A stretch of 64,000 nt of DNA, taken from positions 23,835,437 through 23,899,436 of the forward strand of contig CM026426.1 in the NCBI GenBank assembly GCA_014871385.1. The letters run 5' to 3'. How positions within the stretch are numbered: the stretch's first letter is position 1; each line of letters begins with the position of its first letter. This document shows positions 6,958 through 62,734 of this stretch, one piece after another. The translations under genes were made by a program, and so were the position numbers. This DNA comes from Ceratodon purpureus (lineage: Eukaryota; Streptophyta; Bryopsida; Pseudoditrichales; Ditrichaceae). The notes under the pieces are model-generated. The model made no database searches. It was given only the letters and a program-made list of their open reading frames with translations, and was not told where the DNA came from.

Positions 6958-7641
6958 GAGCAAGCCAGAAAGAGACTCCAGTATGCCACAATTTTGCACA
7001 TGTTGCAAGAGGGCCACCCAATGTTGGAGTATGCAACTCTGCTGCCACTGCTCACCTTCTTGGACGTTCCAATATTGCCGAGGCGGCATTGGTCGGATAG
7101 TGCGGGCTGGGGTTTAGCAGAGTGTCTGTGGAGTCAGGTGCAGCTCAAGACAAAGGCTATTATATGTAAGGCTCGGTTCTCTTCAGTGACCTGCAATGAA
7201 GTTACTACTCTCGACACCCAGAGTTCGATTTCGATCCATGGATACGTATGTGACAATTGGGAGATGAAGCCAATGCTTCTGTACTTGGAGCGAGACATGG
7301 ACGCTCGTGGGAGCGATAATCTCACAGCAATGATCATAGGAGCGCTGAAAGACCATGCCGGCTTCAAGGAAGCTGACTTGGTAACACGACTTGTGTCTTT
7401 TGATGTGTTGATGTAACAAAGACAGAAGTCGTCAAAGGAGATGTTGATGTGTCTCGTTGCATTCTTTGCCAAATCACCTAAGCGGCACTTAGAGTTCGTA
7501 GAGCTTGCGGAGCTCATGCATTTGAAGGGCTTGAAAATACTAAAGAATATAAAAACTTGTTGGATCTCAATGCTGTCACCTGCCGTGCGTGTCATGAGCG
7601 AGTATCGACCGCTCATCGTGAAGATCTCGTTGGATCATTAC

Positions 7642-8030
7642 GTGCAAAAAGGGGTCTGGAAAAGGCCGTGTAAGCCTGCCCTTTCTAGTTGAACCCCCTG
7701 CTGCCCTCCGCATTGTTGCTAGCAGCAGGTGCCAGAGTTGCTGCCCGCACAGAACTGCGTGGCGCACTGTGAACAATCCTCCGAGGAATAATTCTTGAGA
7801 CATAAATGACTTGTCTCGGGGTTTGGTCCCAAGTGGGCAGATGGTGTCAGCCCGGCACTGTAGATTGTGCCCTCCACACGCCTCGCGGGGAGGTCATTGG
7901 TTCAAGCCCCCGTGGCAGTTGCTGGCACCACGCTGGCACAGGACGTGCCACGTCAAAAAGTACGCGGGCAACGCCTGTTTTTTTCTCTCACGTGCCGCTT
8001 ACACGGCCTTTTCTTGACCTGTTTTTGCAC
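7642..8030. mobile_element. 389-bp MITE with 34-bp terminal inverted repeats, inserted in the hAT gene
   Basis: The left end (7642-7675) and the reverse complement of the right end (7997-8030) match at 30 of 34 positions. Both begin GTGCAAAAA and end GAAAAGGCCGTGTAAGC. The hAT protein reads into the element from the left (VKISLDHY) and resumes on the right (QHVQDVLGNI), so this is an insertion. No convincing target duplication is visible. Inside are TGCTGGCACCA (7920-7930), GCTAGCAGC and other CTGCC/GGCAG repeats, plus a B-box-like GGTTCAAGCCC near 7900. It has no coding capacity. Its subterminal GGTCT..AA..GGCC pattern and the TGCTGGCACCA shared with 12494-12504 hint at a relation to the 11-kb element; that is inference. 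Confidence 0.85.
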
Positions 8031-9314
8031 CTAATGTTGGTCCAACATGTGCAAGACGTTTTGGGCAATATAGTGAAAGTGGACAAGAAACTCATGGAGA
8101 TAGCCAAGAAGAATCTTGAGCATCTCACGGACATCCAGATTTTGCTGGGACTTGCGGGCTTGTTGCTTCTCCAGAAATCTATACACAGCTTGATGCAGTT
8201 TGCCCAAATTCGAGACGTTTTTTTTCTGTGACTACGTCTCGGCAATCCAAATGTGCATCGCAGATGTCTACTCTTTCTATCTAGAAGAGACACATGCTTT
8301 CACACAGGATGTCTTTTTTGACTTCAAGGGCTTGGTTAATGTTAAACACGATGCCATCCCAATGGGCTGGGTGCACGGATCGTTTGATCTGAAGATTGAA
8401 ACTGCAGAGGTCCTGCATTTCACACCGACTGGGCATAGCATCCCCGCAATTCATAGAGCTATCGGCAAAGACTTCGCTGAGTCGGTCACGTGGGAGGTGT
8501 ATGCATCGATTGTGGACAATGTGAAGAAGCTGTGCCGCGGTAAGCACCCTGATCTTGGCACTATGTTTTTTTTTTTTTTAAATTTTAATTTTGTAAAACC
8601 TAAGTCATGAATCCTAACCTCGTTGCATCGTGGTGTTGTGGGAGGGGCAGCATCGCAGTTGATTGCTGAACTAGAGGGGTGCTTTCCTTCGTTGTCTCTC
8701 ATGGACGCCTTCCGGTTTCTCTACCTCCAATAATGGCAAAGAGACGAGGCAGAGTTGGACTTCGATAAACACATTGTTGTGATCAAGGAGCATTACGGGC
8801 TTGTAAAGACTTACGACCTTTTGAAGAAAGCCGGTCTGAAGAACCTAATGGCTTTGTTGCCGAAACAGTTGCCGTTGCCTCCCCCGGGCCTCTGGCTTAG
8901 AGAGCAAAAGGGAAAGAGGCTCTTCTAGTTCTGTCAATCGCTAAGCTGGACGAACAAGCGTGCTTGTTCAAGATTGCGATGAGGGCCAATTGTCATGTTG
9001 CTATGCAAGGGGATCTCCCCCTCAACCTTTTGACACGATTGTGGCGTCGCATTGAGGCCAATGGCGTACTTTGGCACAAGTTGTCTGAATACTTCAATGT
9101 GGTGGACCTAGCCGTAGTTACGGTTCTCGGCTCTGTAGAATACAAGAGAACCTTCTCTACTCTGAGCTTTATGAAAAACAAACTCCGTAATTGCTTGTCC
9201 ACGCACTTGCCTCTCGTAGTGGAGATGCATGCCTGGGAGTTTTACCGGCTCGATGACTTCCCTTATGACGCTGCATATGACAAGTGGAAGAATTTGGTGA
9301 GGAAGGGAGACTAA

Positions 9315-12411: not shown

Positions 12412-12445
12412 CATTAGGAGCAGTTTGGGGTCTCCAACGGGCCTT
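12412..12445 (+). repeat. Left terminal inverted repeat of the 11-kb element
   Basis: It starts CATTAGG and ends with GGTCTCCAACGGGCCTT (12429-12445). An ungapped comparison with the reverse complement of the right end gives 28 of 34 identical positions, including 17 consecutive bases at the inner end. Confidence 0.8.
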
Positions 12446-12491
12446 TTCCATGTTATTTGTGCCAAAATTTTGGGCATGCCCGTGCACTTTA

Positions 12492-12518
12492 CCTGCTGGC
12501 ACCAACTGTGCCAGCAGG
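12492..12518. repeat. Perfect 11-bp subterminal inverted repeat (hairpin)
   Basis: CCTGCTGGCAC, five spacer bases, then GTGCCAGCAGG. It lies 47 bp inside the left terminal repeat. It is an extended version of the palindrome found throughout the element, so it is a plausible binding site for an element-encoded protein. Just outward are GGGCATGCCC and another near-palindrome (TGCCAAAATTTTGGGCA), which make this end unusually palindrome-rich. Confidence 0.85.
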
Positions 12519-13329
12519 TCGCCAAAAGCGAGCCAAATCGCGAATGGGGGGGTCCGGCCAATAGTCGCGCAGGAAGGCTTCCCTCCCCCGCGCGTGTAGT
12601 CCCGCAGGTCGAGAACGGAGCCTCTTCGCGCACGGAATTCGAGCATTGCAGAAGGGTGTCAGCGGTGGTGGGCTTTATGAACTCCTGCAAAACTGACTCC
12701 ACAGGCCACCTACCGAAATCGAATTGCCGCTCCCCCTTTGAGATGCAACGTGCACAAGGTGTTGATGTCGAAATGCTGCCAACGGTCATTCCGAACCTCA
12801 TGCGTTCCCTGAGAGAGTTGTTGTCGTTGCGTTGTCAAGCAGGATGGAGCGGTGGAGGCCTCCAAAGGCTGGGCGAAGTTGTTCGATTTCGGTTGTGGGT
12901 GGTCACGCATTGTGCAGTAGAGATTTAGGGTTTAGCTGTAGTGGTCTTCCAACGCTGCCAGCGGTCTGCCATCCACATAGGTTGGAGAGAGTACCTGAGT
13001 TGGGAATTGGGGTTTCGGGATGAGGTTTTAGGGTAGGTCGTACCTTGGTTGCGAGGCCGTGGACGCAGGTTTTAGCCGTTCGTGATGGCGGAGGGTGTGT
13101 TGACAGCGTGTAGTTGTGGCGGTTGATGACAGCGACGACATCACTTGTAAGTTTTGAGTTCACAGTCGAAAATTTCGTGCATTCTAGTGGTATGGCTACG
13201 GCCAAACTCCCTCGTACAGAGTGTCATCCTGCATAATACTCAAGACTTGGAGGGCAACTGGATCCCCATGAGGGTGGATCGTGATTCATGGGTTATGCTG
13301 CAACCAACGTCGCATGGGCCTTGGTATAG

Positions 13330-14512
13330 AGAGGCAAGGCGGCATGGTGGAGAAAATTTTCGGCGGCCTTCAAAGCGCAGATCAGAGATTTCTCCTGGAT
13401 CTCCACGGAGCATGGAGCATGCGACCTCGATAAGGTGCTTGTGCAACATGCATATCAACCAAGGCATCTGCGCTTGGATCCTACGGAGGCAGCAACCAAA
13501 TTGGGAATGGCAAACTACCTGTACGCGTCGGTTTCGGAGGATTGGGTACATCCTGCATCTATCCTTGGTCCCATTCTTGTGCTCCATGTTGAGATTGGGG
13601 AGGCAACACGGAATCGACAGAGCCACGCGGAGTTGCTGGACATAGGTACATTCTTCCTTGGTGGTCTGTATTTGCCTCCAACAGGTGACACGCTGTACGG
13701 GAAGGTTGAAGCACTCCCGCTTCCAGGGTTCAACGATGTGGAGTGGCCTTTGCCAGACATGCACACATCTGAGGCGTTTAGAACAAAGCTCACTCTCGAT
13801 TTTGCAAATGCCATGAAAGCAACAACTAGTAGCAGCTTCGTCCACCACCAATGGTTTATGCCAATCCATGTTATGGTTGATTTGTTTGCGGTAGCTGCTG
13901 ACAGCATTAGGCGGACACCTACATTGTTTGTTTTGAGTAGTCCATCCGAGGCTCCGCTGAGCAGTCTAATGAACCCAGGGTGGAACGAGAAGTTCCACAT
14001 TGGCCAAGATGTCATCAAGTGCGTTGCCAACAGGACCAGCATTGTTTTCCGCTATCACGTGGGAAGACAAACATTATACACCAGGTTCATGTATACAAGG
14101 TATAGGGGGGCTGCCAACAGTCAGTGGGAAGCGTTGGATCACCTACCAGAAGAGGTGATGGTGGAAGTGTCTTGTATGTTTAGGGGGAACCTGCTGCCAA
14201 CATTCGAAGTTGGCAAGGGCTCGCCAGTATCCCACCTGCGGCAAGAAATTGCAATGGCACTTGGAGATGACGTACCTGGGCAGTACAACCTGGTTTTGAT
14301 AGAGGCCAACGGTGTTCGTGAGAAAAAGGTACGAGTCTAGCCGAATTCATGTAGTCGTTTTGATGTGTTGGGAATTGGCTGTTCAGAGCTCCTTGCTGCC
14401 AGCAAACGAAAATGACAGGATTTGTTGGATGCAGATCAACCAGCGCCATGAGAGACACCTTACAGCTGCGGATGTCACGGTTCCCAAAAGGATGAAGATT
14501 GTGGAGCTGTAG
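13330..14512 (+). CDS. Unknown element-encoded protein with a possible ubiquitin-like C-terminal fold
   Basis: The frame is open from about 13330 (after an in-frame TAG) to a donor at 14317. The 5' exon and start codon are not resolved; no ATG clearly marks the start. The open part includes the conserved block QWFMPIHVMVDLFAVAADSI, SSLMNPGWNEKF and RTSIVFRYHVGRQTLYTRF. A C-terminal stretch of about 60 residues (VEVSCMFRGN ... VSHLRQEIAMALG ... YNLVLIEANG) alternates like a ubiquitin/PB1-type beta-grasp; that fold is a guess. An 85-bp intron (14318-14402) begins GTGAGA and ends GCTGCCAG, inside a palindrome copy. It joins in phase 1 to a last exon (14403-14512) reading NENDRICWMQINQRHERHL and ending MKIVEL. 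A decayed paralogue lies at 2.76-3.59 kb, so this is a family. Its role is unknown; a partner of the transposase or a regulator is possible. Confidence 0.6.
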
Positions 14513-15491
14513 GAAAAGTGATTTCGGGGATGGGTAGTCACAGTATGTGGGAAGTCATTAGGTTCTTCGCGAAGTCGTTAGCGAGTTCAGGTAGTGGTTT
14601 TGCTTACCATTCAGGACTTTCTGTGGGACATCCTGTATTAACGTGTTATATGGAGGCAAATTTGTGATTACCCTTGATCTTCGTGCTGCCAGCGGAAATA
14701 GAAAAGAAAAACAGTTACAATTACCAGTGGTGAATCCTAGGGTGCAAAATGAAAAATAGAATAAAATACAAGAAGTCTGAAGAATGGCCGGGGTTTCAGA
14801 GGGCCTGGGTCTGAATCGCAAAATTGCTTCGAACTTGTGGTGGCGCCATTGACGCTGGAGCCTGCTGCCAGCGCAAAATAAGAAAAGAAAAACAATTGCA
14901 TACAATAGAGCACATGACCCTTCAGAGGCACAAAATGGAGTTTGGCACTTGACAAATATGAAGTAATTCGGAAGGAATGTAAAGTTTGTTACTTCCTCCG
15001 AAGAGGCTGGCTCCTTCGTGAACCTGGTGCTCTGAACTGGCAATGGCGGGCACAATGCAGCCCTTGGTGCCAACAAAGACGAAAAAATGAAGGTTGCAAA
15101 TAAAAAAAGAACCACGCTTGATTCTAATAGAACAAGATAAAAATAAAAAACAGTTGTACATAAGAGATGAAGTAGGTCGCAGATGGTAAATAACAACAAT
15201 GGCCAAAATTGAAAGGGACCATGGTGGCGAATAATGAAATAGGAAAAAAAAAAAAATGGCGGCTAAAGAGCAGCCCTTGCTGTCAGCAGTCCTCAATAAA
15301 GAAGAAATACAGTTGCGAATAAAAAGGAAGGGTTACAAGAATGCCATATCTTTCAAAGAGACATGGCAGTCCAGAGGCAAATTGTTTTCAAGTTCGGAAA
15401 AGTTTAAGAAATGTAGCCCATAAAAGTCCGGACAAAAAGTCGCTGCCAGCAAACCCCTAACCCCGCCTACGGAACTATCTAAGGTGGGAAT
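14513..15491. repeat. Tandem-like array between two convergent genes
   Basis: Four imperfect units of about 180-210 bp start with the palindrome or a variant at 14685, 14864, 15066 and 15279. Each is followed on the plus strand by an A-rich run (GAAATAGAAAAGAAAAACAG and relatives) and often TTGCRAATAAAA. On the minus strand each unit reads as a pyrimidine tract followed by GCTGGCAG, the form of a 3' splice site. I infer repeated duplication of an intron 3' end or of a protein-binding unit. No coding sequence is supported. Confidence 0.6.
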
Positions 15492-17428
15492 CTACTCCAC
15501 GACTGCATCTGTGGCAATTGCCTCAACAAGGCTGGACAGTCCCTCCATGTTGGTGTCGTCCTCGTTCTTCCAAGCTGCACCTGGTCCTTGCGTGGTGGCG
15601 GATGAGCCCTTGTTCCCTTCTCCGGATAGGGCTGCTTGGGTCTCATGAGGAGAGCGTTGCGTGGGATCGAACGCCAGGGAGTCTGAGTCGGGGAGAGCAT
15701 CCTCTGTAGTTGCTGCCAGCAAACAAGAATTAGAAAATAAGAATTATTCGGATGTAACAACGAATTAGGCAAGTAGCAATGGGCAGATAGGTTAAGGGGC
15801 AACAAACCTTGGTCGCCCTTGGTCTTCTTCCACGGAAGCGCGGCCACAGAGGGGGCAGCGGGCCTCTTGCTGCCAGCACGTGGTGAAGCAGGCTCGGCCA
15901 GGAAGATCTCCTCCGTGAGACGTAACTCCTCCGCGGCCTTGGAGTCGAGGTCGAAGCCCCACTGCCCAAGCCATCCTCCAGTCATCCCCCGCTCGCAACG
16001 ACGGCACCGGGCGTCTTGGGAGAAGACTGCCTCAAACATACAATGGGGATGTGCCAAGCAGCCGCAGAACAAAGGTACGCAGCAGGTGTCAACGAAGTAA
16101 CGCTCGCAGAAGGGGCATGGGTCGTTCAGGGCTATTGGCAACACCTGGAACACCAGTGGATAACGAGCCAGCACCTTCTTCGGGCGCAAGAAAGCTGAAG
16201 CCAACTCCAAGGCCGAGATCTCCGCTGTCAGCGCGGAGACCTCGGCGTGGCGTCTCTGCTCATCGGCTTCCATCTCCTCCAACTTCTTGTAGACCCTGTC
16301 AATGCGGGCTTGGGCCTCAAGGAGTGCCTTGCTTGCAAGCCCCAGCTTGTCTTGGCCTAAGCGGGCCGCGTGATCAAAGCGCCTCTTCTCTTGGTCGTTG
16401 CTAGCGACCGCGGCCTTCTTCGAGGCCTCGCGGGCGGAGAAGATGTCGTCATAGAGCTTCGACTCCTCGGCCTCCTTGGCTTTGATGTAGTCCCGCTGGG
16501 TTGCAAGGTCGACCTTCACGCGGTCCCGGCTGGCCTCCACCTTCAGAAGTGCCGCCTCCAAGGACTTCTTCTTGAGGCGCTGCTGTTCCAGGACCTGCTT
16601 CGGATCCGTTGCCACCAAGGGCTGCACCTTGATGGCAACGGCAGCAAGGGCCTTCACGGACTTCTTCTCAGCCACGGCCTTGGCAGGAGGGGGCAGGGAT
16701 CTAGGTCCCCTGACCTTCTTCGCCTCCGCGGCCGTGATCAAAGCCTTGGAGGTGGCTCCAACTGGCTTGGCTGCTCCGCTCGACTCCGCCCCTCCTCCCT
16801 TGCCCTTGCTGCCAGCACCGGGGATGTGGCCAGCGAGGAAGTCGATAATGGCTTCAATCTGCTCCCTCAAGGCCGGGGGAGTCAACTTCTGCGGATTACG
16901 CCCTGGCAGCTTCTCACGCCCCTTCACAATTGCCTCCGCCTTCTGGGCGAAGTTGACATCCACGCCCTTCTCAAAGTAGAGGTGGCAAGCCCGAAGAAAG
17001 GAGGTCCCGAATGCCCAGTTGTCGGGGTCACCTCCATAAGTCCACCGGTACATCTCGCAGTATTTCCTCTGGGCCTCCGGATCCTCACAGTCAGCAACGT
17101 AGTGCCGCCCAGAAGAACGCTCTGGCCATCTGTCGATGAAGTCGGCCTTCCTGCAATGCTTGTCGCCGCTGAGGTCACTGAACTTGAGCCCCTTGTTGGA
17201 GAGCTGCAAGGTGCGGGCGAAGAAGTCCTCATCGTAATCCGCAGCCTGCCTACCCAGCAGAAATGGGGCGAGGTGGTGGAGCTGTGCATGAAGTGCAGGG
17301 GGTAAGCCGTCCAAGTCGAAGGCGTCATCCCACGGCGTCTCAACATCGTTGCCATCCTCCTTGCTATCAGCAACCTCGACGACCTCCTTCTTCACGACGG
17401 CCTCCTTTCCCTTCCTACGGCTCGACAT
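15492..17428 (-). CDS. Element-encoded coiled-coil protein with RING-like zinc finger
   Basis: The chosen start is the ATG at 17428 (MSSRRKGKEAVVKKEV); an in-frame ATG at 17482 is also possible. The N-terminal 170 residues are acidic/aromatic with no family I know. A Gly/Ala/Ser-rich linker follows, then a long Lys/Glu/Ala-rich coiled coil (LEQQRLKKKSLEAALLKVEA onward to SALTAEISALELA). A Cys/His cluster comes next: CPFC, 13 residues, C-G-C-LAH-PH-C, then CRRC, resembling a RING or related cross-brace zinc finger. The C-terminus is basic (GSKRPAAP, PWKKTKG) and suggests a nuclear protein. Exon 1 ends at 15808. A 95-bp intron (15713-15807) starts GTTTGT and ends GCTGGCAG within a palindrome copy. 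It joins in phase 1 to the last exon (15492-15712), ending VEAIATDAVVE. The frame is intact. A ubiquitin ligase or DNA-binding accessory role is possible but not shown. Confidence 0.7.
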
Positions 17429-19549
17429 CCCTGGCGCTGGTAGTGCAAAAACAACACGTTTTACGAAAGGGGGATCGCGCATGGCAGCTGATAGGAGAGA
17501 AACGGACAGGGTATTATTCTTGCAGATTAGAGATTTAAGCTACACATCTCTAAACCATTACCCCCCGCGACCCTAGGAGCCATTGCTGAGCAACTCTATT
17601 CTCTTCACCATGGTCGGTACGCTCCAACATGGCCAACCGCAACATAAGGAGGAGCAAGGTTGCAAAAAAATAGACACGATCAGATCACTAACCTCGCAAT
17701 GCTTCACTGCCAGCGGTGGAAGACGGTGCAGCTTGAAGCCCCTCTCGCCGCGCGTGACAATGCGCCTCTAGATTCTGCAGCCGAGAAACCTCCACCTCAC
17801 CCCACGCTCCCAGCCCTGCTGCTCCACCCCGCTTCTTCTGCTATAGCTCACCCTCCCCTCTCTCCGGCTGGCCTCGGTTCTTCTCCACTCCGCTCCTCAC
17901 GCTGCAGCTCCACGCCCGCTCCTCACTTCGCCAATGAGCTCCACGCCTGCTCCTCACTATTCGAGAGCTCCACCCCGCTCCTTGTGCTGTACCCCCCTCC
18001 CCTCGGGCTCCCGACCGTGCTGCTCCTCCCCACACCTTGCGCTGTAGCTCCCAACCGCAAGAACTCGCCTTCAGCTCTACGGCCGCTCCTCACGTGACCC
18101 TCAACGCGAGCTCCGTGTAATGCAGCTCCGCCCCGCTCTATCACCTTCCGTGGCCCACCACAGTGCTTGCGCTTCCGTTTCTTCTTGCCAATGACGTTGC
18201 TGCTCTTCCTTCGTCCTCCTTGCTGTACCTCCCCGCAGCTCTCGACCCTGCTGCTACTCCTCGCTCCCGACCTTGCTGTACCTCCCCGCAGCTCTCGACC
18301 CTGCTGCTGCTGCTAACCGCTCCCGACCTTGCTGTACCTCCCCGCAGCTCTCGACCCTGCTGCTGCTCCTCGCTCCCGACCTTGCTGCTCCAAAACCGCT
18401 CACGACCCCCTTGCTCCACCTGCCGTTGAATCTCCACGGCCCTCCTCGACGGCTCGCTCCTCACGCTGTAGCTGCTTCGTGCAGTCGACCGCAACGGCCC
18501 CTTCCTTCAAAGTCGTTGCTGGCGGTACTCTTCGTCTCCTCACGCGATCTTCAACGACCCAAAGGGGGTGCGTGACTGTATCGCCCTCTGAACATCCAAC
18601 TTCCCCACGGCGCCCACAAAACTGCCAAGGTAATTGCAATCGCGAGGGCGCTTGCTGACAGCAAGAGGACGACTGAAGAAGACAGAGGAGCTGAAGAGGT
18701 GTTGGAGTCAACGGAGGGTGTCGTATGGGAACAAGGCAGGAAAAGAGAGAGGCCTTCCTGCCCGAGTCAACCACATGTGCGTCCTTGAAAACTAGGCCGG
18801 GTTTACTTCAAGAGGATATTGGAACGCTTTTAGAGGAGGTTTGGGGGGCTTAGAGGGAGTTGAGAGTCTCAAACAGAGTTTAATGAAGGGAGGTTGAGGA
18901 GTTGGTGCAAAGCTCTCAATTCTCCCTTAATTGCCACTCCATGCAAATGATTGCCATGGCCCTAAACCACACATCCCCATTTGATGTGGGTACTTAGAAA
19001 ATCGTCTTAGAAATTAAAATCTTAATTTGAGCGTGACTGGTACATATGATTACTAAGACCATTAATTATGAAGATTAATAATTGCATGGACTAGGCACTT
19101 TAGTGAGCTATCCACAAAACAAGTTTAGGGGAGAAACATGGCCTAACTCATTCAAAAAAAACATTGTTGCCAGCCACATTCTACATAGCTCTAACATAAT
19201 TACCAAAATACATTGCGGTCAAGTCACACACGGCCATTGCTCGCGTCATCACTGTCGTCATTGCTGCCAGCGACCTCACTGTCAGTGGACTCCCCTTCTT
19301 CTCCATGGGTGCCTCTTTAATAATTATCGAGATTAACTTAGCAATGGATAAGCCATTTTAGGGAATTGCTCGAAAAAATCCTCATTTTTTGATAAATCTA
19401 TCCGTAAATGGCTATTCTAGAATGAAACCAAAAAACATGTTAAAGAAGAACCACTGTCTACTCCGATCAAAAAAATTAAAAAAAATAAAAAACTTGCTAC
19501 ATTATAGATGTCCATCCAATGAGTTTAGAACGCATAATTTGTACTCAAT
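17429..19549. repeat. Non-coding interval with a CT-rich minisatellite
   Basis: This lies between the 5' end of the RING-like gene and the 3' end of the transposase gene. From 17.8 to 18.5 kb it is strongly C/T-rich. A unit beginning TGCTGTACCTCCCCGCAGCT recurs at 18221, 18274 and 18330 (period 53-56 bp), with partial copies to about 18400. Long ORFs here are low-complexity and I do not accept them as genes. Promoter elements of the minus-strand RING-like gene would lie just above 17428. Palindrome copies are at 18654 and 19263. Confidence 0.6.
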
Positions 19550-22500
19550 TCATACAGGCTCGTTGCCAGCGTCATCGCTGTCCACGTTGTTGCCAGCGTC
19601 GTCACCGTCAGTTGAGTTGCGTCCTTCCTCAAGATCCACATTGTTGCCCTCCTCCCCGGGGTCATCTTTGTTGGCAGATCCTCTTGCTTGATCATTGTTG
19701 GCTCCATCACCTCCAACGGTGTTATCACACACCCAAGCTTTGCCAACACGCCGTCGCCTTGACCGCCAATTCTTCAAAGCCCTGGCAGCATTTGATCGAT
19801 GCCACTGTTCTCGCCTTCTACGTGTAGCCTCCATGCGGGCCTCTTCGTCCGGGGTATTTAGAACCCTGGTGCACTCTAATTTCTTCTTATACCGATGCTG
19901 TATATTTCGGTACCAATGTTGGAATTGTTGCAAAATAACACTGATGCGCTCTTTGCCACCACCGTGAGCTGTATGCGCTTGATTCGCTGCCTTCGCTTGA
20001 TGATGGGATTTCTCCATACCCTGGCAACTCCATACGGCCAGACTACCGTATTCCTCCACAAACCAACTGCCATGCCTGACAATTACATGCTGTCAACAGC
20101 CACTCCAAGGTTAGTCCTGGATAGAGAATTGACAAAAGTGAGGTCAGCCATCAACCCCTAATTCATCCCAAACCTCGTTCATATAACTCACCATGTAGTG
20201 CGACACATGCTCCTCTCCGAAGGCCTCTAAAAATGTTCTCCCCCACGTTTCTATCTTCCCTTTGAACTGGAGTCGTTGTTCTGCTGTCAGCACCAAGCCG
20301 CTGAAATATGGTAGAACCTCTTCAAAGGCTTGCCACATAGCAGCCCTTGCCCTACGATGTGCACCGCCGCCACTATTATTGCTCTCTGCTTGACATATGT
20401 CTATCCAGGCCTTGTCGTTTCCAGACCATACGCTTGGTTTAAATAGTCTGCTAGCAACAACCCCACTGAAAGATGGCTTCTGTGGCACATTCCCTGTGCT
20501 GCCACTCAGTTTCGGATCCTTTCTAATCTCCACATTGCCACCGTGAGCCCCGATAGCTGACAAGGACTTCTCCATTTGCTCTATGGCTGTAGCCCTCAGT
20601 CTTTGATCTTGTATGTTCCAGACATAAATGATGTGTTGATGCACAATCTTCTCCGCTAGGCGAACTAGGGCGTGAAGTGTACAAATGTGCACTCTTTGCA
20701 ACGGAATTGGCAAGATAGGCCTCCACCTTGTATGTGCACGCATGTCACATGGTTCTGGCTCCACAGAGTTGACAAACAGTCCCCCCACCCAGTTCGGTTT
20801 CCCACGTTTTCTGATGGCAGCACTCGCCTGGCTTGCTGTCCCTACGGTAGGCTTAGCCCTCTTCTGCTCGCAGTATATGCAGTTCATCGCACACGACGGC
20901 CCCGACTGAAGCCCGTACATACACTTGATCGTCTTCATGTCCGCACCGAGATGCCATTCCACATGGAATTCTCCAACTTCAGGGACCGTGAGTTTCTCGC
21001 CACTGGACTGTGCTGCAATCACAAAGGAAATTTGGATTTCCCAAATATCCACGACAGAACTTCGTAGGACTCTTTCTCCACTTGAAAGGTTGCCACTGGC
21101 CAAATTTCCTGCTCCTACTGGACTGAGAAAAACAGGGCATGGTTTCTCTGAATGTCTGGGTCGAGCGCCCTATTCATCAATGTGATGCTGACCCGTTCAA
21201 ACTTCTTGCCATTGACAATCTCGGCCTCGTCCAATTTCATGACAAATACCAGCGGTGCCCCTCTTAACTCTGTGGAAACATGGCGAGTGGATGTGTAAGT
21301 CACGGTTAATTGATAAATAACCCTGCTGGCAGCAAACTCTGAAAACAACAGTCTGAGGTGATTACGTTACCTTCTTCCGTGATGCCGTAGAAGATCACCA
21401 TGCTCCTTTGGACCACCTCAAGGTCTGTGAATAGGGAATTCTTGTCAGTCAAAACGACTTCCTTTACCATGTCCTCGGACTTCTTGTTCTTCTTAGAACT
21501 TGCTGGCAGCGTAAGTCGACCTTCAGCATGGTAGTATTCGCCAATATACTGTGGCAGGTTTGCATTTAACTCCTGCCGAAGCAGTTTCACGTGATAGGGG
21601 CTCGGCAAAATACTCCCGGAGACTCCTTTGTTCAGAGCAGCAATGGGAGCCTTCACAGATTTGTAGAGAGCACCATATCCCCGATGGGAAACCCCTGCCT
21701 GGTCGCAAGCAGCAAGAGATTGTCCGGTCCAATACTCTTACCAATCGATTTGAGCACATTTTTCGCAATATCTGACTGAACATGTGCCATTGCAGGCTGA
21801 GAAGCGAGGGCTACACCTTCATGCCGTGACAAAATTTGAGCTAGTGCTACTGCAGTCCTATTTTGGGACTCTTTATCCCCCCGCAGTCGAGAGCACTTCC
21901 GGTTCTCTCGGTTTCTTTCGACAACAAACTGCACCACATCTGGTTGCAGCACTGTCTGCACAAGCTTCACTCTTGCTTTTGATCCACCTGATCCAGGTTT
22001 TAACTCGTGAATCCCTCTGAGAGCCCTCCTCCTATTTTGCATGCCCATGGGGGTCTCCTTCTCGAAGCTGGCCCTCCGCTGGCAGCGGTCAACGTCTTCT
22101 TGGAGACCCCGCACATGGCGCTCCAATTGCTCCACCCTTTGGGCATGGCAATCACGGACAGCCTGTAATTTAGCTTGCAAATCCCTGCATTTCTTCTCTA
22201 ACTCAAGGCAACGCATTCTCCCCAATTGGACATCTTGGGCTGCCCTTGAGTTGCTGGCCAGAGCTTCGCCTCTAAGCTGAAGCACTTCTTTGCTCAACTG
22301 TGCCAACTGGATCCACGTCTCCTCCTGTGTAGGACCATGTACACAATGATCCAGCAGCCTGTGTGTATATCCGCGAAGACCCTGCTCTCCATGACATATG
22401 AACACAACGAACTCTTTTAGCGACTTGATTGGAGGTGGCTTCCCTGTCATTGGGTCAACATGGTAAATGTCTCCATTGATCCACAAGTCAATGTTCGTGT

Positions 22501-22642
22501 CTCCACGCAACCTCCGTGTTGGAAACGAGCTCCTCATGCACAGCTCCACTTGCGTAGAACCTCGTCTCATGACCGGGGCATAACGTGTGTCCAGTGCAAA
22601 GTGGGGAATGTACTGATTGCTTCGTTCAGCCCTTGCTGCCAT
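19550..22642 (-). pseudogene. DDE-type transposase with zinc-knuckle insertion, frameshifted
   Basis: The first exon (22642 downward, MAARAERSNQ) encodes about 330 residues with a central coiled coil (LELEKKCRDLQAKLQ). The next segments give ALYKSVKAPIAALNKG and LPQYIGEYYHAEGRL. A first catalytic-Asp candidate follows at LVFVMKLDEAEI, about 21.2 kb. Then VEKESYEVLS and FHVEWHLGADMKTIK (second Asp) lead into NCIYCEQKR (C-x2-C) and VHICTLHALVRLAEKI (His). The final ORF (19550-20059) carries VWSCQGMEKSHHQAKAA, a good place for the catalytic Glu, and a basic and then acidic Gly/Asp/Asn-rich tail. Asp, Asp, C-x2-C, His, Glu is the layout of RNase H-fold transposases with an insertion domain (RAG1/Transib, CACTA and related groups). 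At least three frame changes (near 21.66, 21.35 and 21.05 kb) are not obvious introns, so this copy looks inactive. The superfamily is left open. Confidence 0.6.
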
Positions 22643-23492
22643 CGTGGACCCGATAGTCGGTAATCTTGATTGAATCTCCCCTGGTCACACATGGTGATTT
22701 GCTGTTATTCGAGAGAACTTGTTATGATCTTGGGACACCTCCTACACCCAATGAAAAACTAAATTCACAACCTCAAATACTCCGAACCTAATTCGATAGA
22801 CCTGCGTGGCATCTACAAGCGCTATCGACCACGAAACCTACATTGCCTTATGCCGTTGTGGCAGCAAGGGCTAATGAAATCGAAATTCAAATTGCTCAAA
22901 AACCCAGTAGCCCCTGAACACCCCACAAAGGTTTATCGAATTAGGTTAACTTACCTTCCCTTCAAGTACATCAGTTTTCATCTCTTCGTTGAAACCTTGG
23001 TCGCCAACTGAGAACAACCCCTCGCCGCCGTCGCTGCCAGCGGACGCTACCAAGAAATGAATTGCAATCTCAATTTTGCTCCTCCGGTCTGGGGCGCCAT
23101 CGCCACTCGGAATCTTTCTCGCAAATCACATACGATTGTGCGTCCCACAGTGCCAACAACGACTTGCTTGAAGCAGAACAGGGCGCTTCGTTTTCTTGGT
23201 GCTGAACGGCGTAGAGCCGGTGGCGCCATCGCGCCCAGACCGTTGTGGCAACAACTCGAACAATCCGTGGATCGAGGCAACGGATCGACGCACTTCATTA
23301 ATCGCCGAGCAATAAATCCCATTCCTTGGCGCTCAACAACCACCGTCCACGCCCTCTCGCCAACAAGGACCAACTATGCCACGCAACTCCCGTCCGTCTC
23401 CAAAAGGCCGCTTTGGGCAGCGTTTCAGACCCCTGCTGACAGCGACAGAGGGGGTTTTGGGCAGGCAGCCCACCTAACCCGGGCTGTCTTAC
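22643..23492. promoter_or_regulatory. Transposase 5' flank and right subterminal region
   Basis: GC-rich DNA between the transposase start and the right terminal repeat. It includes two copies of GGCGCCATCGC (about 23093 and 23222), palindrome copies at 23033 and 23435, and a GGGC-AGGCA-GCCC inverted repeat near 23457. A 155-codon plus-strand ORF here has no domain and is not called. I presume the transposase promoter lies here; no TATA box is obvious. Confidence 0.4.
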
Positions 23493-23526
23493 AAGGCCCG
23501 TTGGAGACCTCATTTTTCCCCTAATG
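23493..23526 (-). repeat. Right terminal inverted repeat of the 11-kb element
   Basis: AAGGCCCGTTGGAGACC at 23493-23509 is the exact reverse complement of the inner part of the left repeat. The outer part ends CCTAATG. Confidence 0.8.
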
Positions 23527-43336: not shown

Positions 43337-45921
43337 GTGGTTGACATGGAAGGTGGCATTAGACGGCAGTCACCTGGGCAGAGGCGCATACGTGCGCGGT
43401 CCGTGAAACTCTTAGAGAGAGAAATCGCTCATGCTCAGAGACAGGGTTTAATCAAATTGAAATGTCCGTGTAATCTTCACGCACGTGGTCAGCGCTCTTC
43501 CCTGTCATTGACATCCTATCGACGTTGTGTGACACGAAATGGTCGACATCCGTGGTTCTACGGAAGCAGTGAGGTAAGTTTGTATCATGAACCATTGTTT
43601 GCCGATCACCTACTATATTTGAAATTTAGGGGCCTGATGTGCTATTCGAGGGAGAACGCTGTTGAGCAAGCGCAGACCATGTAATTGTCAGGATCCATGT
43701 TTTGTCGCGGTGTTGACATAATATGGGTTCAATATAACAAATGTAAGTTATGTCCAGTACACGTTCTAGCCGCGACATTCCCCTTTTCGCAGTCCATATC
43801 TTAAACTCCATGTGCACCCAAAAATTCGTTGCTTGCCATACGCATCCCCTTTGTTCACTTCCGCACTAGATGTTGGCTTCACTTCTACAATTTGCTACAC
43901 ATGAATTCCAGTTCATGCCGCTGCTATCTCTTTGATACCATTGGTTTATATTGACTTGTACATAGTTCGTTGCATTTTTATGTATATTTACAGGGGGTAT
44001 CTGATGTTCACGTTGTCTTCTTACAAATCCAGGGGTATGAAGACCACGTTTCCGACGTGGAATGGAATGATCATATACTGTGGTACCACGGGGAGAGGGC
44101 GAACGAGGAAATTCGAAGAGCTCGAGATATAACCCTAGACAATGGTATTAACATCGTGGACATGGTCACAGACACGTACGGCCTGGCGGACTTGAATCGT
44201 CGAGAAGCTGAGGTGGAAAGACATGGTTTGTGATACGATCCAGTCCCTGCGGAGGGCGTTGGTGGGGATTCAGAAGATTCAGCAGGACATGGCTTGCACC
44301 ATGTTCCGTCACCAAGGCGACATCGCAGTCCGCCCCTGGAGAATGCAACTGAGACCGGTGCAGAGAACGTATTCATGCCAGATGACGTGCAATCAGAGGC
44401 TGTGGAAAACGCAGAGCGACAGCAACCAGCTACAGCAGAAGAAGAGGGACAAGGAAGCCCACTCTCATCCGAGGATTTCAGCACAGGGACTCGGGACGAA
44501 TCTGACCTTGAGTGGGGAGACTCAAATAGCGAGACTGAGGCATCCGTAACAGCACTTCAAGAAGCCGCGGCCACCCCACTATTTTACGGCTCCACCATGT
44601 CCAGCTTGGGTTGTACATACTTATTGTTGAATTCATGGAAACTTCATGGTAGCACCGATGTGTCTATGGACGAGTTATTTCGACTCATGAGCAAGTCCAT
44701 TCTACCTCAACCGAATTCTCTTCCTTCCTCTTACAGAGAAGCCGCTGAATATGTAAAGCGTCTAGGGCACTCGTATACAAGTTTTGACGTGTGTCCTAAG
44801 GATTGCTGCTTATACAGGAACGAGTTGGAGGACGCCACATCATGTCCAAACTGCCGCTCACCAAGGAAAAATAGAGCAGGGAAGTCGCTTGTTCCGCAGA
44901 AGGTGCTGAGAGTGTTTCCCGTTACTCCCAGGCTGAAACGAATATTTCGGAGTCCTCTGCAAGCAGCAGCCATGACATGGCATGCAATGCGGCAGAGGAC
45001 TGATGGTCTGATGTCACATATTTCCCACTCCAAACAATGGCTGTGGATAAACGAACGCTACCGGGAGGAGTTTGCATACGATGACAGGTGAGTCCGGATG
45101 GGCCTCATTGCAGATGGTTTCAATCCATCTTCTGACAAACGCAGTACGTACTCTATTTGGCCAATCCTTCTTTTGAATTATAACATGGCTCCTTGGTTAA
45201 CCACAAAAAGATATTTTATCATTTTGGCAATGCTAATTCCGGGACCAAAGTCAGTGACGTCCGAGCACTTTGATGTCTACATGGCTCCTCTTATTGACGA
45301 GTTGTTGGAGTTGTGGACTTACGGAATATACTGCAAAGATGTTGCAAATTACAAGAACTCCTCTGCCTTTATTCTCCGTGCAATGGTCATATGGACAATC
45401 GGAGACTTTCCTGCGCACGGTATGTTGGCCGGGTGCACAACGAAGGGATTTCATGGCTGTTTTGTGTGCGGTGCTGGCTTTAGATCACGCCGAGCAAAAT
45501 TGCTTCACAAAAACGTTTTCGAGAACTTTGCACGGAGGTACCTTCCACCTGACCACCACATGCGACATGACTCTGCAAATTTTGGCACTGTCGAAGTGCG
45601 ACAGCCGCCGCTTCCGGTTTCAAGTGCCACTGCTTTGAGGTTAGGACGGGAGCGAGAACGGTGGCTTGGAGAGGAAGGGACACCACTTCACAATGATCCT
45701 GTTAGGGGGCATGGCATAAAACGTGTCTCCTGTTTTTTCCGGCTCCCGTACTGGCACGTAAAACGTCCTAACCCTCAAGAAAGTATCAGTTTTATTTTGT
45801 TATGTGTTTCTCTTACAGGTGCCTAAAATTGTTTTGCATGCTGATAGGGAAATGTATTACAGTCTGAATCCTGTACAGGATAATTCATGTTGGCTCCCCC
45901 ATACATTGCAGATTTTAGGAG

Positions 45922-46440
45922 GGTATCACCGATGTCCTGTCTTTAATTTCCTCGATGTTCTGTCATCAAGTTTCTCGATCTTCTGTCTGCAGCTCCCCCG
46001 TACATTTTATTAGAGTCTGCATCAGAGACTTGTTAAGTTGTATTCGAAACAGCAGTCCGTTAGCTGGTTACCTGAGCTTGCGATGGTTGCTGTTGTGAGA
46101 GAGGAGTGTACACTGTCACTCTGAGACATGTTTGGTACCTTGAGTGCATATATTTCTTTTAATTTTGGGTTGGTGGTTTTCAGTTTCTGATGGTATATTA
46201 CAATTGTTGGTGAAATGTGGGTCTGTGCTTGGGCGATTGGGAATGGGTGTTCGTTGGTGTGGGAGAAGGGATAGAAGCGTTTATGGAACAGAGTGTCAGG
46301 GTTGTAGCAATGCACATGTTATTGTGTTTATAGTTTCCTGGGCCGTGTGACTTGTGGTTGTTTTAAAGTGAGCGTTTCTTTTCTTCTGGAGCAGGGTGGC
46401 TTTGGGTATGTGGTTAATATGTAGCCAGTACCTGATCGGC
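45922..46440. repeat. 519-bp dispersed repeat, copy 1 (inside the CACTA gene)
   Basis: It begins GGTATCACCGATGTCCTGTC and ends GATCGGC. It is the same length as, and nearly identical to, 54379-54897, with only scattered substitutions. A minus-strand 97-codon frame is open in both copies, but it has no domain and is probably chance. No inverted termini were found on this copy. Confidence 0.9.
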
Positions 46441-47880
46441 CATTTTCGCTCACTTGAATTAGATATAGAATTCGGTTATATTGTTTCTTTATTTCAGTTT
46501 TGAAAGTTTATAGTCAAATTTTTTATGTCATCCACTACTCCGAGGTCCAATTCAGTAAATAACAAGTCTTTTCCAGCAGCTCCTTGGACTTTTGTTACTC
46601 TTGCTGTAGAGCTCGCTACATCTTTTATAGTTCGAGAATCATATTTAATTGTCTTGTTGGAGTGCTTTTGGTATTCAATTGTGTTTCTCCTGATTCGGAG
46701 TGTTGTTAGTAGCTTGTGAGGTGTAAGAGTGATGTGGAAATGCATAGGTTTGTTCTATGTTCTCTGCCGAAGCGTTGCGTTCTTGCAGGCTTGATCACAG
46801 TTGTACAAAGGTTTCACTGTATCAATTTGACATATTGAGCTTCAGATTACTGTTGTTTCTCCTATCACCACCTTTCTTTGAGTTGTGATTGATGATTTTG
46901 TTACACAGTGAACACAAGCTTATCCCTCTCTCAAGTAGAGTCGGTGTGTCCGTTACCAGGCACTTTGGACTGTCAACCTTTAGCCTTTTAATTGATGACC
47001 TTTAGCCTTTTAACTGAATGATAACGTTTTTGCTGCAAATGGGCTGTTCTATACAATTACGTTATACTTGCGAATTGATAGGATAATATGAATTCCCATC
47101 GGTGCTAGTTGCAAGCTTCTAAATTGGTGCATTAAACCCGGTAGGCAGTTGTCATTAATTCATAGAAGTTTTTGGAACCGTGGATAATTCGTTGACAAAT
47201 TTCCCATCTGATTGGGTAAGTTATCGGAGTACACATAGGTCCTAAGTCGTCTGAACTTAATTGTTTTTTTAAGTTGTACAAAGCTCAGTTTGATTCATGC
47301 TTTGGACATCAGTGATGTAGTATCGGTTGATCAGTTGCTTGAGGTGCCCACATTGGCGACGGCGGAGGGAAGTATAGCTGTTCGTGTGTCAGAATTGTTC
47401 GATTTGTAAACTTGGTCCAAGGTGTCTCGTGAAGTTTGCAAAATTGTACGCCTCACTTGCGAGTCATAACTAATTATACATTTTAGTTCTAGTAGTGACT
47501 TTGCTTTGTAGACAAGAAGTTGAATTTTCAAATTAGGGCAATTCTTTAGAGTGGTACATGAGCTAGAAGTGCGCTTGTGTATGTGAACAAATAGAAACGG
47601 TTGCTTTTGAGTGATGTGATCGAGGTGTAAGAGTGATGTGGTCGAGCATTGGTAGATTGTGGACATGTTTTCACGGAAGTGGTTACGAAGAGTGTATACG
47701 TGACAATTGCTGCGTCAGTATATAGTTTATTCATTTTTCGAATGGGGAAGTGGCCACTCGTTTTTTTTTTTGGCGCCTGTGTCACTAACGAAGTTTATAA
47801 CCTGTTCATTTGTAATGTCCTCTGTTGGCCGACGATGTGTAATGTCTGCTTTGCAATACAGGAACAGGTTATTCAGGTCA
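46441..47880. other. Insertion-like AT-rich interval within the CACTA gene
   Basis: No CACTA coding sequence can be read here, although the protein continues on both sides. A 20-bp direct repeat GAGGTGTAAGAGTGATGTGG occurs near 46719 and 47622, about 903 bp apart. That could mark a duplication or the edges of an insertion. Nothing else is supported. Confidence 0.5.
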
Positions 47881-50207
47881 ATGTACTTATACCTTTACTA
47901 TGTTGTACAGCAAGCAATCATCGAAACAGTAATGGAGAATTATGAATCATCCATAGTCCTTGCATACTCCTGTGAACTCTTTCCATCTTTGGCTCACGAA
48001 TTTTTGATCTTGTTACATGAACTGCCCGTGCGGCATGCATATTGAGAAAAGGGTGGTTGCCATAGCGATGGGATTTGTGATGGGTGACGCTGATACAATT
48101 GCAGTCAGAAAGGACATGCAACAAGCAAATGTGATGCATGATCTTCATCTTTAGAGGGACGGTGTTGATGGTACATTTAGAAAACCACATGCCCCTTATG
48201 TACTTCAGCGGGAACAAAAACGGAAGTTCGTGCGTACCATACACTCTGTGCAGACACCATCAGGACATTGCGCAAATTTTGAGAAGCTTGTGAACTTACA
48301 GAAGGAATGCCAGCAATTCATGAAAACGCATGATTGGCACGTTCTACTCCAAGAAATACTACCGGCTGCCATACGTGGATTACTACCAGAGGGTCCAATG
48401 GTGTGTCTCATTAGATTGGGTCACTGCTTTCGACGATTCTGTGCAAAGATTATCAATGTGGACGAGCTGACACAGCTGCAAACATACGTTGCAGAGACAA
48501 TGTCACTAATGGAGCTCCACTTCCCTCCAGCATTTTGGAACAGCATGCCACATTTGGTCAACCATGTGCTCCGTGAATTGTATTGGTGCGGTCCCGTACA
48601 TGCAAGGTGGATGTATTCTGGTGAGAGATACATGGGACATCTTAAAACATTGGTCTGAAACAAGGCGAGGCCTGAGGGCTCCATTGCAATGGGGTATATC
48701 ATTGAGGAAGCATTGGGATTTGTGACTGAACATTTTCGGTCATTTCCAATTCCTGCACGTGTAATCTGGGACATGGACGAAGATTTAAAGGACTGTAGCG
48801 AAGTTCTCGAGGGGAGGCCAGTGGAGGTGCGTTTGAGTGCGGCTGATTTGTTAGAGGTGCATGAGCACATTATCCGGCATTCAACTTTCATGGAGGCCTT
48901 ATACCGGTAATATCCTCTTCTCTGACTGTATTAGGACTCATAATGTTTCCATCCTGTTCTTGTTCCATTATGTCATGTTCTTTTGAGAAAGGTCATTGTG
49001 TTATTTATCCGCAGCAGTCGACAATGTTCGAGCCCTGATGGCCATGCTGAACTGAGATGTCTGTCCCGAAATCCATAAAGCCAAGTACATTACATTGTAC
49101 TTGCTGCACAGTTCGTCCGATGTCCGATTCTACCTTGTAATCTGCGTTCCTGAGTAGTTGAAATTGTGGTATAATTGTACACCCTTTTTTGCAGTGAGTA
49201 TTTAGACCTACGAAATGCGGAAGATACCAGACATCGGAGACGGTTCAGCCGATTCTCTAATTGGCTCAAGGAACGCGTGCAGTCGATGGCAGACCAGGGC
49301 CTGCCCAGAAATCTGTCTCTCACCACGCTCTCCAAGCTGCCTATCCCAGTAGTGAAAAGTTACACTTCAATGTACGCCTATGGATATCACTTCGGTGTGG
49401 ATGACGAGGAGGGACGGAGCAATGTTTCCTTTGATTCTGGAGTAGCATGCATTGCCAGTCAGACATGTAGGTCTTCAACGCGAGACAGACACCCTGTTGA
49501 GGCTCCATTGCAGTATGTTGGAATATTAAAGGATATACTTGAAGTGGATTATGGACACCTCCAATATACCGTACTTGAATGCTCTTGGATTAGGCCCAAT
49601 GTAGGAGGCAATCGAACCATCCGCGTAGATGACCATGGTTTCTGGTCTGTAAAGTTCAATGCCCGACAGTATCCCGCAATAGAACCGTACATCATGCCAC
49701 TCCATGCAAAACAGGTGCATGTCTTCCAAATTCTCATCGCCGGTTGCTTTTCTCTTCTCCTGCCAGCACTTATGCGAATGCTAATGTAATGATGCAGTTG
49801 TGAAACCGATATTACGTTGAATAACCTGAATAACATGTTTACATTGTTGGCAGGTGTACTTCATACAGGATCCTCTGGATCCAGATTGGAGGATAGTCCG
49901 TGATGTAGAGCCTCGCTCCAGGCGCGTGATAGCGGAGTCTATAGAGGAGTCATTAAGTGCCCCCGGTCGATCTGACGCCACGACGAACATATTCGCTGAC
50001 AGAAATCCGCAGGAAACCGAAGGACTACACCCCGTATTGGAGGCAGATGTAGCTCATGTTCTCGCACATGAAGAGGCTGATGACGAAGGCGTACACGAAC
50101 ACGGCGATGAAGAAGAGATGGATTCTGATTGGGACGAAGGCGATGCTGAGCAGCGGGAGGATGATCATTTAACAACGGAAGTTGAGGATGTCATAGATGA
50201 CCATTAG

Positions 50208-60388: not shown

Positions 60389-61066
60389 TCAGTCCCAGCA
60401 AACTTCAGTCCAGTCCACTCGTGCACGTCCAAACTTTCTCGCTGCTTCAATTGCCCAGTGCACTTGCCCCGGCCTACACGCCTGCGCCATATACTCCGGT
60501 ACAGATCCGAACTTGTGCAAGGGATAAACCAGAGGAAGGATATCTGTAGCAATGTTAGGTATATCGCCGTCATCGTTCAGAAAGTTTTGATGACCCTGAA
60601 AAGGCCAAGGAATGTAGCACATACAGTTTGGTGTCTTCCTCAATGACCTCGGGTCAACATCCACAAATAGCACCTGATCTAGTTTGCAGACGTTACGAGA
60701 CTGTACCTTGGAGCAAACTTGACCTAACGTCTTATAACTCCAAGGGAAATTCTCCCGGTCGATAAGGTCACTTTTGCTATACACGAAGGACAGCCTCTCC
60801 ATTACATCGGCCGGCAGAATATGTGTGAGTAAAGGCTTCAGTTCTCCCAAGGGCATCTTCGACCACAAACCAACATGGAAATGCAAGAAAAGCATGTCGA
60901 AAAGCTTCTTCAAACCTGGGCGCTTCACTACATTCCGATGCGTATCCCATGGCAAAGCCTCTATCCTGGGATCCACATAGCAGAGAAGGCCATTGACGCA
61001 TAGGACAATACATTTCTTGACATGATGGGGTGGACTGTGAAGGCATTTGAAATAAAACGAGGAACC
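60389..61066 (-). CDS. FCP1/NIF-type HAD phosphatase relative, copy 3, catalytic Asps lost
   Basis: An exon opens after an ATTCTTCAG acceptor at 61066 and runs to a stop at 60389. The HAD motif I region reads KKCIVLCVNGLLCYVD. The plant FCP1-like consensus here is a hydrophobic run then D-x-N/D-G, so the nucleophilic Asp is Cys and the second Asp is Asn. Then come VKRPGLKKLFDMLFLHFHVG and LWSKMP (motif II Ser/Thr position) and KLDQVLFVDVDPRSLRK in place of the usual VDD motif III. NIF-family proteins dephosphorylate Ser/Thr, classically on the RNA polymerase II C-terminal domain. With these substitutions catalysis is doubtful. The frame is open. It could be a pseudo-enzyme or a decaying copy. 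Any first exon lies upstream and is not resolved. Confidence 0.65.
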   Translation of the reverse strand, partial: GSSFYFKCLHSPPHHVKKCIVLCVNGLLCYVDPRIEALPWDTHRNVVKRPGLKKLFDMLFLHFHVGLWSKMPLGELKPLLTHILPADVMERLSFVYSKSDLIDRENFPWSYKTLGQVCSKVQSRNVCKLDQVLFVDVDPRSLRKTPNCMCYIPWPFQGHQNFLNDDGDIPNIATDILPLVYPLHKFGSVPEYMAQACRPGQVHWAIEAARKFGRARVDWTEVCWD

Positions 61067-61589
61067 CTGAAGAATATGAAGTGCAATCAGTGAAGGAAAT
61101 CAAGGAACAGGACGAAGTATATGAAAGAAATGGACTATATTCAAAGTCGTCGGCGACCCGCCGACAAAACGATGCATTGAAGAAACCTCAAAGGTAAATG
61201 TGCAGCAAGGGAAATGTTCATGCATGGATCTACAAAAAGAAGTACCGAACTGCAGCACTGGAAACAAATGTCTGGTGCAGGGAAGTTCAGAAAGGGAACA
61301 GTCTTAGCGTATTTAACTAAAGAGTGTAGAGTATCATATGTGATTTTTAAAACAAGTGGCGCCGCTGGTATAGGCCCTAATCAGTCGGCTGCCCGCCGAC
61401 AATGGAACTACGAGGGGCCTCCGTAGGACAAGGTAAATTCACAAACCAAGATCCAGGATTACTCGGGACGTCAAACCTGCATGCATGAGAAGGAATAACC
61501 TCCCTATACTTCTGGTATTCGCGAGATTCTGGAAAAAGACGTGGCTTCCCCACGCTAGAATTCTTCCTACAATACTCCCGGACATCCAA

Positions 61590-62507: not shown

Positions 62508-62734
62508 GGGTGATCAATCGCGTACTCACAATTCATACTTGCTCTAGTGTACAATAGGAGATACAATAAGACACCCACGACAGAATACACAGTGTCGACA
62601 CTGAGTTCCGTTCTCATATATATAAAAGGAGGAAAACTTTATTTACTGTATAAGTCTAAATACATGAAGATCCCATCGGCGGGCAGCCGACTGAATCATG
62701 TGCATGTTCTCTAAAACAGTTTCTACATCTCCTA

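Follow-up and report, generated by a model that had tools for sequence, protein, structure and literature searches.

A family-specific palindrome dispersed along a moss DNA transposon with a predicted RAG1/Transib-fold transposase, a candidate binding site for an element-encoded protein

Subterminal transposase-binding repeats are known in the En/Spm and Ac/Ds transposons. For sequence-specific anti-silencing in which a transposon supplies both motif and protein, the VANDALs are, to our knowledge, the example known in detail. In Arabidopsis, the motif of VANC21 is YAGTATTAY and that of VANC6 is AGTTGTCC/AGTTGTAC (PMC5735166, PMC10398659); the targets of the two proteins differ from each other, and the motifs lie mainly in non-coding tandem arrays of the same orientation (PMC5735166). 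Here a DNA transposon is described from a 64,000-nt stretch of the moss Ceratodon purpureus (contig CM026426.1; the whole stretch is called the window), along which a palindrome of 9-11 bases with the core GCTGNCAGC is repeated both within genes and between genes. The initial annotation had named the VANDAL/VANC motifs as the closest known idea. Measured against the VANDALs (PMC5735166, PMC10398659), the likeness holds in that a short motif is dense in one family and rare elsewhere, a related family of the same genome carries its own, different palindrome, and the element is long, with accessory genes beside its transposase. It fails in that the moss motif is palindromic, scattered and also found in exons, with tandem arrays only in short derivatives. 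Unlike VANDAL, the moss element has a transposase with a RAG1/Transib-like fold and BAH and RING-like accessory proteins, and its anti-silencing activity is putative. The VANDAL/VANC pattern of family-specific motifs is thus repeated in another kind of transposon.

In the window, GCTGNCAGC was found in 19 exact copies, all inside 12954-23443, and in none of the other ~52.9 kb. About 18 copies against roughly 0.2 expected had been reported at first; the count is 19, the first starting at 12954 and the last ending at 23443, and the excess holds against a mean of 0.86 per window in 100 whole-window dinucleotide shuffles (maximum 3). When the element alone was modelled by Markov chains of orders 1-4, the means were 0.33-1.74 and the maximum 6. 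Among words of the 4-N-4 form, GCTGNCAGC is the commonest in the element, followed by AAAANAAAA with 9 copies. The flanks of all 19 sites are a pyrimidine on the 5' side and a purine on the 3' side (Y...R). Sites with a single mismatch are also in excess, 19 in the element versus 4.6 expected from the remaining window, and the second base is T in 8 of these 19 versus 2 of 22 outside the element. From these flanks and the T at the second base, the working motif YGYTGNCARCR was derived, which occurs 26 times in the element and 4 times in the rest of the window. The sites show no periodic spacing (P 0.43), and the smallest distance between them, 157 bp, is unusual (P 0.004), whereas sites in the short derivatives are spaced about 16-27 bp.

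The motif is conserved as DNA and not as a peptide. Within exons supported by homology, it is read as A-x-S at 13897, 15869 and 16808 and as L-x-A at 16224 and 20283; two more sites, in transposase-gene open frames that lack such support, are read as L-x-A at 21502 and in a third frame, x-C-Q-x, at 22078. Since coding-region sites fall in at least two, and probably three, reading frames, selection acts on the DNA, and a peptide repeat as the cause of the motif was ruled out. Nine copies of the element were compared, the other eight being 89-97% identical to the window over their aligned parts, two of them partly aligned. In the majority-based count, which is the main one, the six core bases carry 28 changes, where base-matched columns predict 52 (P 0.003) and a contiguous-run control 50 (P 0.011); since related copies enter as if they were independent, these and the following P values are optimistic. 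Changes that break the base class at the two Y positions number 4 versus 15 expected (P 0.009). At base 2, Y-to-Y changes occur at the background rate and transversions once versus 7.9 expected, while G1 (7 changes in 418 cells) and T3 (4 in 418) are conserved. With the window as reference, a count biased by choosing only sites intact there, intact sites in three copies came to 17/18, 9/17 and 11/18 versus 80%, 59% and 56% for background words, and G4>A is rarer than background (4/242 versus 4.5%, P 0.04).

Related copies retain the motif at matching places, with decay in the older ones. Exact GCTGNCAGC sites number 19 in the window copy, 19 in c1, 19 in c2, 12 in c8, 11 in c6b and 14 in old1, the six of nine long copies in which both ends are aligned (c12a, c12b and old2, with an unaligned end, were left out). 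The flanks of the five fetched both-end copies, 7.4 kb in total, contain no GCTGNCAGC. The degenerate forms are kept in most aligned copies, that at 19561 being variable.

Genome-wide, GCTGNCAGC occurs 9987 times in 362.5 Mb (1 per 36 kb) versus 2025 for the reversed control. Of the 59 listed sites in C1:1-2.95 Mb, 57 were included in a census, with family membership assigned by similarity to the ends and two weak cases (L016, L028) counted as family. By this assignment, 36 of the 57 sites lie inside copies or derivatives of the motif-bearing family, a single full copy holding 19 of these; the other 21 are isolated. The Y...R flanks are present at 35 of the 36 family sites versus 6 of the 21 isolated ones (Fisher 3.4e-8). 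The motif is not dense elsewhere: four arbitrarily chosen 10-kb genome stretches contain no GCTGNCAGC, and the census of the first 2.95 Mb of C1 gave 21 isolated sites. Eight short copies (318-451 bp), whose ends resemble those of the long element, contain between 1 and 5 motif-like sites each, and in two of these copies the sites stand in 16-bp tandem units. The eight were found via the motif, which biases their motif content upward, so that the informative sites are those beyond the ones that drew them in. The contrast with subterminal repeats drawn in the initial annotation is therefore true of the long element, where the motif is element-wide and includes coding DNA, and not of the short derivatives, in which motifs, some as tandem units, sit between the inverted ends. 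In being present in short non-autonomous copies, the motif resembles the repeats of En/Spm and Ac/Ds. Likewise, the claim that the motif is absent outside the element stands for exact copies in the window, but a decayed relative also lies there (Table 1), in which the site GCTGGCAGC of the L007 copy has become GCTAGCAGC. This derivative is free of the motif-selection bias and holds decayed sites only.

Other families of the same kind of transposon were compared with that of the window (A) as three 10-kb stretches (B, C and D) found by a distant-relative query, which detected diverged transposase exons at 53-58% identity to it; each stretch may include some flank. C and D are 94% identical over 7.5 aligned kb and count as one family for that reason; their transposase is about 53% identical to that of the window, a value obtained via P0017 (98% and 95% to C and D, 53% to the window). 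In A, B, C and D, GCTGNCAGC occurs 19, 0, 0 and 0 times and GTTNNNAAC occurs 4, 4, 19 and 22 times. The C and D counts of GTTNNNAAC per 10 kb exceed the 3.6 and 3.7 expected from 200 shuffles each (maximum 10). The centre is C or G in 38 of the 41 C and D sites, and A is almost absent at the first spacer base, a GTT...AAC motif and spacer rule found post hoc, after looking. Coding homology covers 7 of the 19 GTTNNNAAC sites of C. In the single 10-kb stretch of B, there is no dispersed palindrome of either kind, GTTNNNAAC being at background; GCANNNTGC is in mild excess, 8 versus 2.8 per 10 kb of background, in part from a local array. That tandem array of GAGAGCAGAATGC, at L050 4053-4308 near the BAH gene, is reminiscent of VANC target arrays. 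In B, the BAH gene adjoins the transposase. A, C and D each have a RING-like gene, and none was found in the 10 kb of B; over aligned parts, that of C/D is 26-36% identical to that of the window family. In C/D this gene and the transposase are on opposite strands (L051 907-2262 and L052 796-2135, as reverse complement), and in the family of the window they share a strand, so that the gene order differs. A further set of RING-like genes, ~77% identical to P0055, comprises 69 matches, among them C2:1291554-1293491. Many copies related to C (G000 C6:28868027-28869124 and dozens more) share two in-frame TGA codons in a stretch of the transposase exon, either a broken subfamily that multiplied or an intron.

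The motif is thus enriched in the element, conserved at the DNA level and concentrated in one family and its short derivatives, and a distant family bears a different motif. The reading we tentatively prefer, and hold to be quite possible, is that the palindrome is a family-specific DNA-binding site, scattered throughout the transposon, for a dimeric protein encoded by the element, perhaps with an anti-silencing role. Such a protein would recognise YGYTGNCARCR whether it stands in an exon, an intron, a spacer or a short non-autonomous copy, and would so mark the DNA of its own family. We infer the binder, its dimerisation and the anti-silencing role from the following. Two families carry different palindromes of the same length and symmetry, which favors element-encoded dimeric proteins of diverged specificity and hints at a tagging of DNA by each transposon family for recognition by its own protein. 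The palindrome accompanies the RING-like gene in the few cases seen, suggesting the RING-like coiled-coil protein as the most likely binder; the BAH protein, where present, would probably add chromatin reading. Anti-silencing, acting locally along the whole element as VANC proteins do for VANDALs, is the best guess for its use because element-wide sites are more in keeping with a local effect on chromatin than with recognition of the ends.

Several observations weigh against this reading. Constraint within the site is uneven: by majority count G4 is unconserved, with 17 changes in 418 cells (4.1%) versus a background of 4.7% for G, and with the window as reference the C-to-T change at base 2 proceeds at the background rate (14/242 versus 5.3%). 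VANC motifs are mainly non-coding, whereas those of the moss element are also exonic. The sites of C are kept in D no better than background (15/18 versus 80%, P 0.51), leaving retention beyond background between C and D unsupported. Moreover, A and B have a BAH gene but none was found in the 10-kb stretches of C and D, and the link between RING-like gene and motif is drawn from three families, two with a motif, over 10-11 kb each.

The chief rival, rated as somewhat unlikely, is that the motif is a binding site of the transposase or a transposition enhancer, the interior copies being tolerated extras that gather transposase. Short derivatives that keep little beyond their ends still hold motif-like sites, though their discovery via the motif biases their share, and in the long element the outermost sites are about 80 bp away from the end on the right and, in degenerate form, ~360 bp away on the left. 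Different transposases also go with different motifs among the families, yet B has the same kind of transposase and no dispersed palindrome in its 10-kb stretch. Furthermore, most sites of the long element are kilobases from either end, and some are exonic. Quite improbable is recruitment by the motif of a host transcription factor or chromatin protein exploited by the element. A dimeric plant factor could bind a 4-1-4 palindrome, and the genome has many sites, with 21 of the 57 sampled outside the family, but different palindromes are found in different families of one nucleus, and the Y...R flanks are missing from most of the isolated sites. A host silencing tag or a methylation footprint (CTG and CAG, in CHG context) of no use to the element is highly improbable: the C-to-T change at base 2 is the commonest in the 19 sites (14 of 32), but selection would remove rather than spread such a tag, non-motif CTG sites decay equally (5.3%) without forming palindromes, and the GTT...AAC arms of the C/D motif contain no CHG. 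Chance with base composition, or duplication of GC-rich blocks, is negligible: the G+C of 0.48-0.59 in 2-kb blocks of the element does exceed that of most other window blocks, but the shuffles and Markov models that preserve composition rule it out and the sequence around the 19 sites appears unrelated from site to site.

If the binding by an element-encoded dimeric protein is real, an independent case in a transposon with a RAG1/Transib-like fold, its family-specific palindromes extending through coding DNA, would point to dispersed self-marking as a strategy of wider use, and it would offer natural protein-motif pairs for sequence-directed chromatin work. The many copies with an open, near-identical transposase exon make the system testable. 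In a broader proposal, which we regard as speculative and unlikely, plants would harbor a RAG1/Transib-fold lineage whose element-wide palindromes co-evolve with a dimeric RING-like protein, with a BAH reader in some families; the protein may read the 5-methyl group common to T and methyl-cytosine and so find its own family even when silenced. The idea of methyl sensing comes from the two variable letters of the motif, each C or T, one in a CG (YG) and the other in a CHG (YTG) context; of the two, only the CHG letter, base 2, shows C-to-T at the background rate with few other changes. In the literature consulted, no description of such an element was found, which is no proof of novelty.

Table 1. 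Features of the element, its motif sites and the nearby short derivative, in window positions
Feature	Position	Strand	Basis
DNA transposon, 11,115 bp, inverted ends CATTAGG...CCTAATG	12412..23526		inverted repeat; same or near-same ends in copies and short derivatives
Left terminal inverted repeat, 34 nt, 82% complementary to right	12412..12445	+	
Right terminal inverted repeat	23493..23526	-	
BAH-domain protein gene; frame broken in window copy between ~13354 and 13426	13199..14337	+	relatives, tblastn, fold
Coiled-coil RING-like protein gene (ORF 15479-17539)	15818..17482	-	relatives, alignment, tblastn
RAG1/Transib-fold transposase exon; frame broken in window copy near 21022-21025	20180..21303	-	relatives, tblastn, predicted fold
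Open frame, probable N-terminal transposase exon	21653..22684	-	position and strand
Open frame, probable C-terminal transposase exon	19550..20092	-	inference
Motif YGCTGNCAGCR (CGCTGCCAGCG)	12953..12963		
Motif, BAH-gene exon, frame A-D-S	13896..13906		relatives by tblastn
Motif	14394..14404		
Motif	14684..14694		
Motif	14863..14873		
Motif	15278..15288		
Motif	15441..15451		
Motif, 3' edge of RING-like gene; probably intron, yet read through in one relative's predicted protein (P0054)	15711..15721		
Motif, exon of RING-like gene, frame A-G-S	15868..15878		tblastn
Motif, exon of RING-like gene, frame L-T-A	16223..16233		tblastn
Motif, exon of RING-like gene, frame A-G-S	16807..16817		tblastn
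Motif	18653..18663		
Motif	19262..19272		
Motif, transposase exon, frame L-T-A	20282..20292		tblastn
Motif, probably transposase-gene intron	21324..21334		
Motif, transposase-gene open frame without homology support, frame L-P-A	21501..21511		
Motif, upstream open frame in transposase gene without homology support, frame R-C-Q-R	22077..22087		
Motif	23032..23042		
Motif, about 80 bp from right end of element	23434..23444		
Degenerate motif YGYTGNCARCR (TGCTGCCAACG)	12774..12784		
Further degenerate motifs YGYTGNCARCR	13098, 14022, 14192, 19561, 19588, 20088		
Decayed 401-bp short derivative, related subfamily	7636..8036		81-84% identity to L007/L035 copies

The 34-nt inverted ends recur with small changes wherever the end of a copy can be aligned. 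No target duplication of at least 4 bp was seen at any of 9 insertions of the family (window 12412-23526; loci L005/L006, L007-L010, L017, L035), with boundaries shifted by up to 9, despite the well-kept ends, which is unusual for a cut-and-paste element. The central GC-rich, CTGCTG-rich segment (window about 17530-18850) shows little or no alignment to three other element copies and resembles a replaced block. Because the transposase and BAH frames are broken relative to relatives, the window copy is probably not autonomous itself. In the 362.5-Mb genome, the transposase exon query gave 107 scored matches among 1083 first-look candidates, the 107 at 92-98% identity and many without stops. No DNA relatives of the element were found in viral and bacterial contig collections.

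Comparison of predicted structures, whose models are of middling confidence with the matched folds standing out nonetheless, placed the transposase closest to RAG1/Transib, and HGSWFVEEYGSLAVWSCQGMEK in the probable C-terminal exon carries what we take to be a resemblance to the RAG1 catalytic-glutamate stretch. Neither the transposase exon nor seven relatives had a Pfam match up to E 1, and a profile search of PDB sequences for solved structures returned only 2 unrelated matches at E 0.6. None of the three element proteins received a Pfam name, all matches being sub-threshold. The second accessory protein, called unknown in the initial annotation, accordingly has no Pfam name but was assigned a BAH fold by predicted structure. 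The RING-like protein has a conserved Cys/His block in 5 sequences and no Pfam RING match up to E 1.

Transib/RAG elements have ends of the CAC... type and a 5 bp target duplication. The moss transposase shares their catalytic fold, as predicted, with no sequence-level match in the PDB profile search; unlike in that group, the 9 insertions lack a duplication of at least 4 bp, the ends are CATTAGG and the host is a plant. CACTA/Chapaev (CMC) transposases have CxxC-H type zinc residues in an RNase H transposase. The moss element is like them a large plant element with extra genes and such zinc residues; it differs in having no Pfam Transposase_21 (TNP2) match and no 3-bp duplication at its ends. 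We know of no solved CMC structure for comparison. As to the Mutator/VANDAL superfamily, the transposase exon and the seven relatives gave no Pfam match to a MULE transposase up to E 1, and among the folds compared directly the predicted one was closest to RAG1/Transib. The window also contains a separate CACTA element at 44234-49789 on the + strand, which does match Transposase_21 and has a sub-threshold DUF4216 match. An NLI/FCP-type phosphatase domain (NIF) is present in open frames at 60389-62513, which apparently represent a host gene or a fragment of one.

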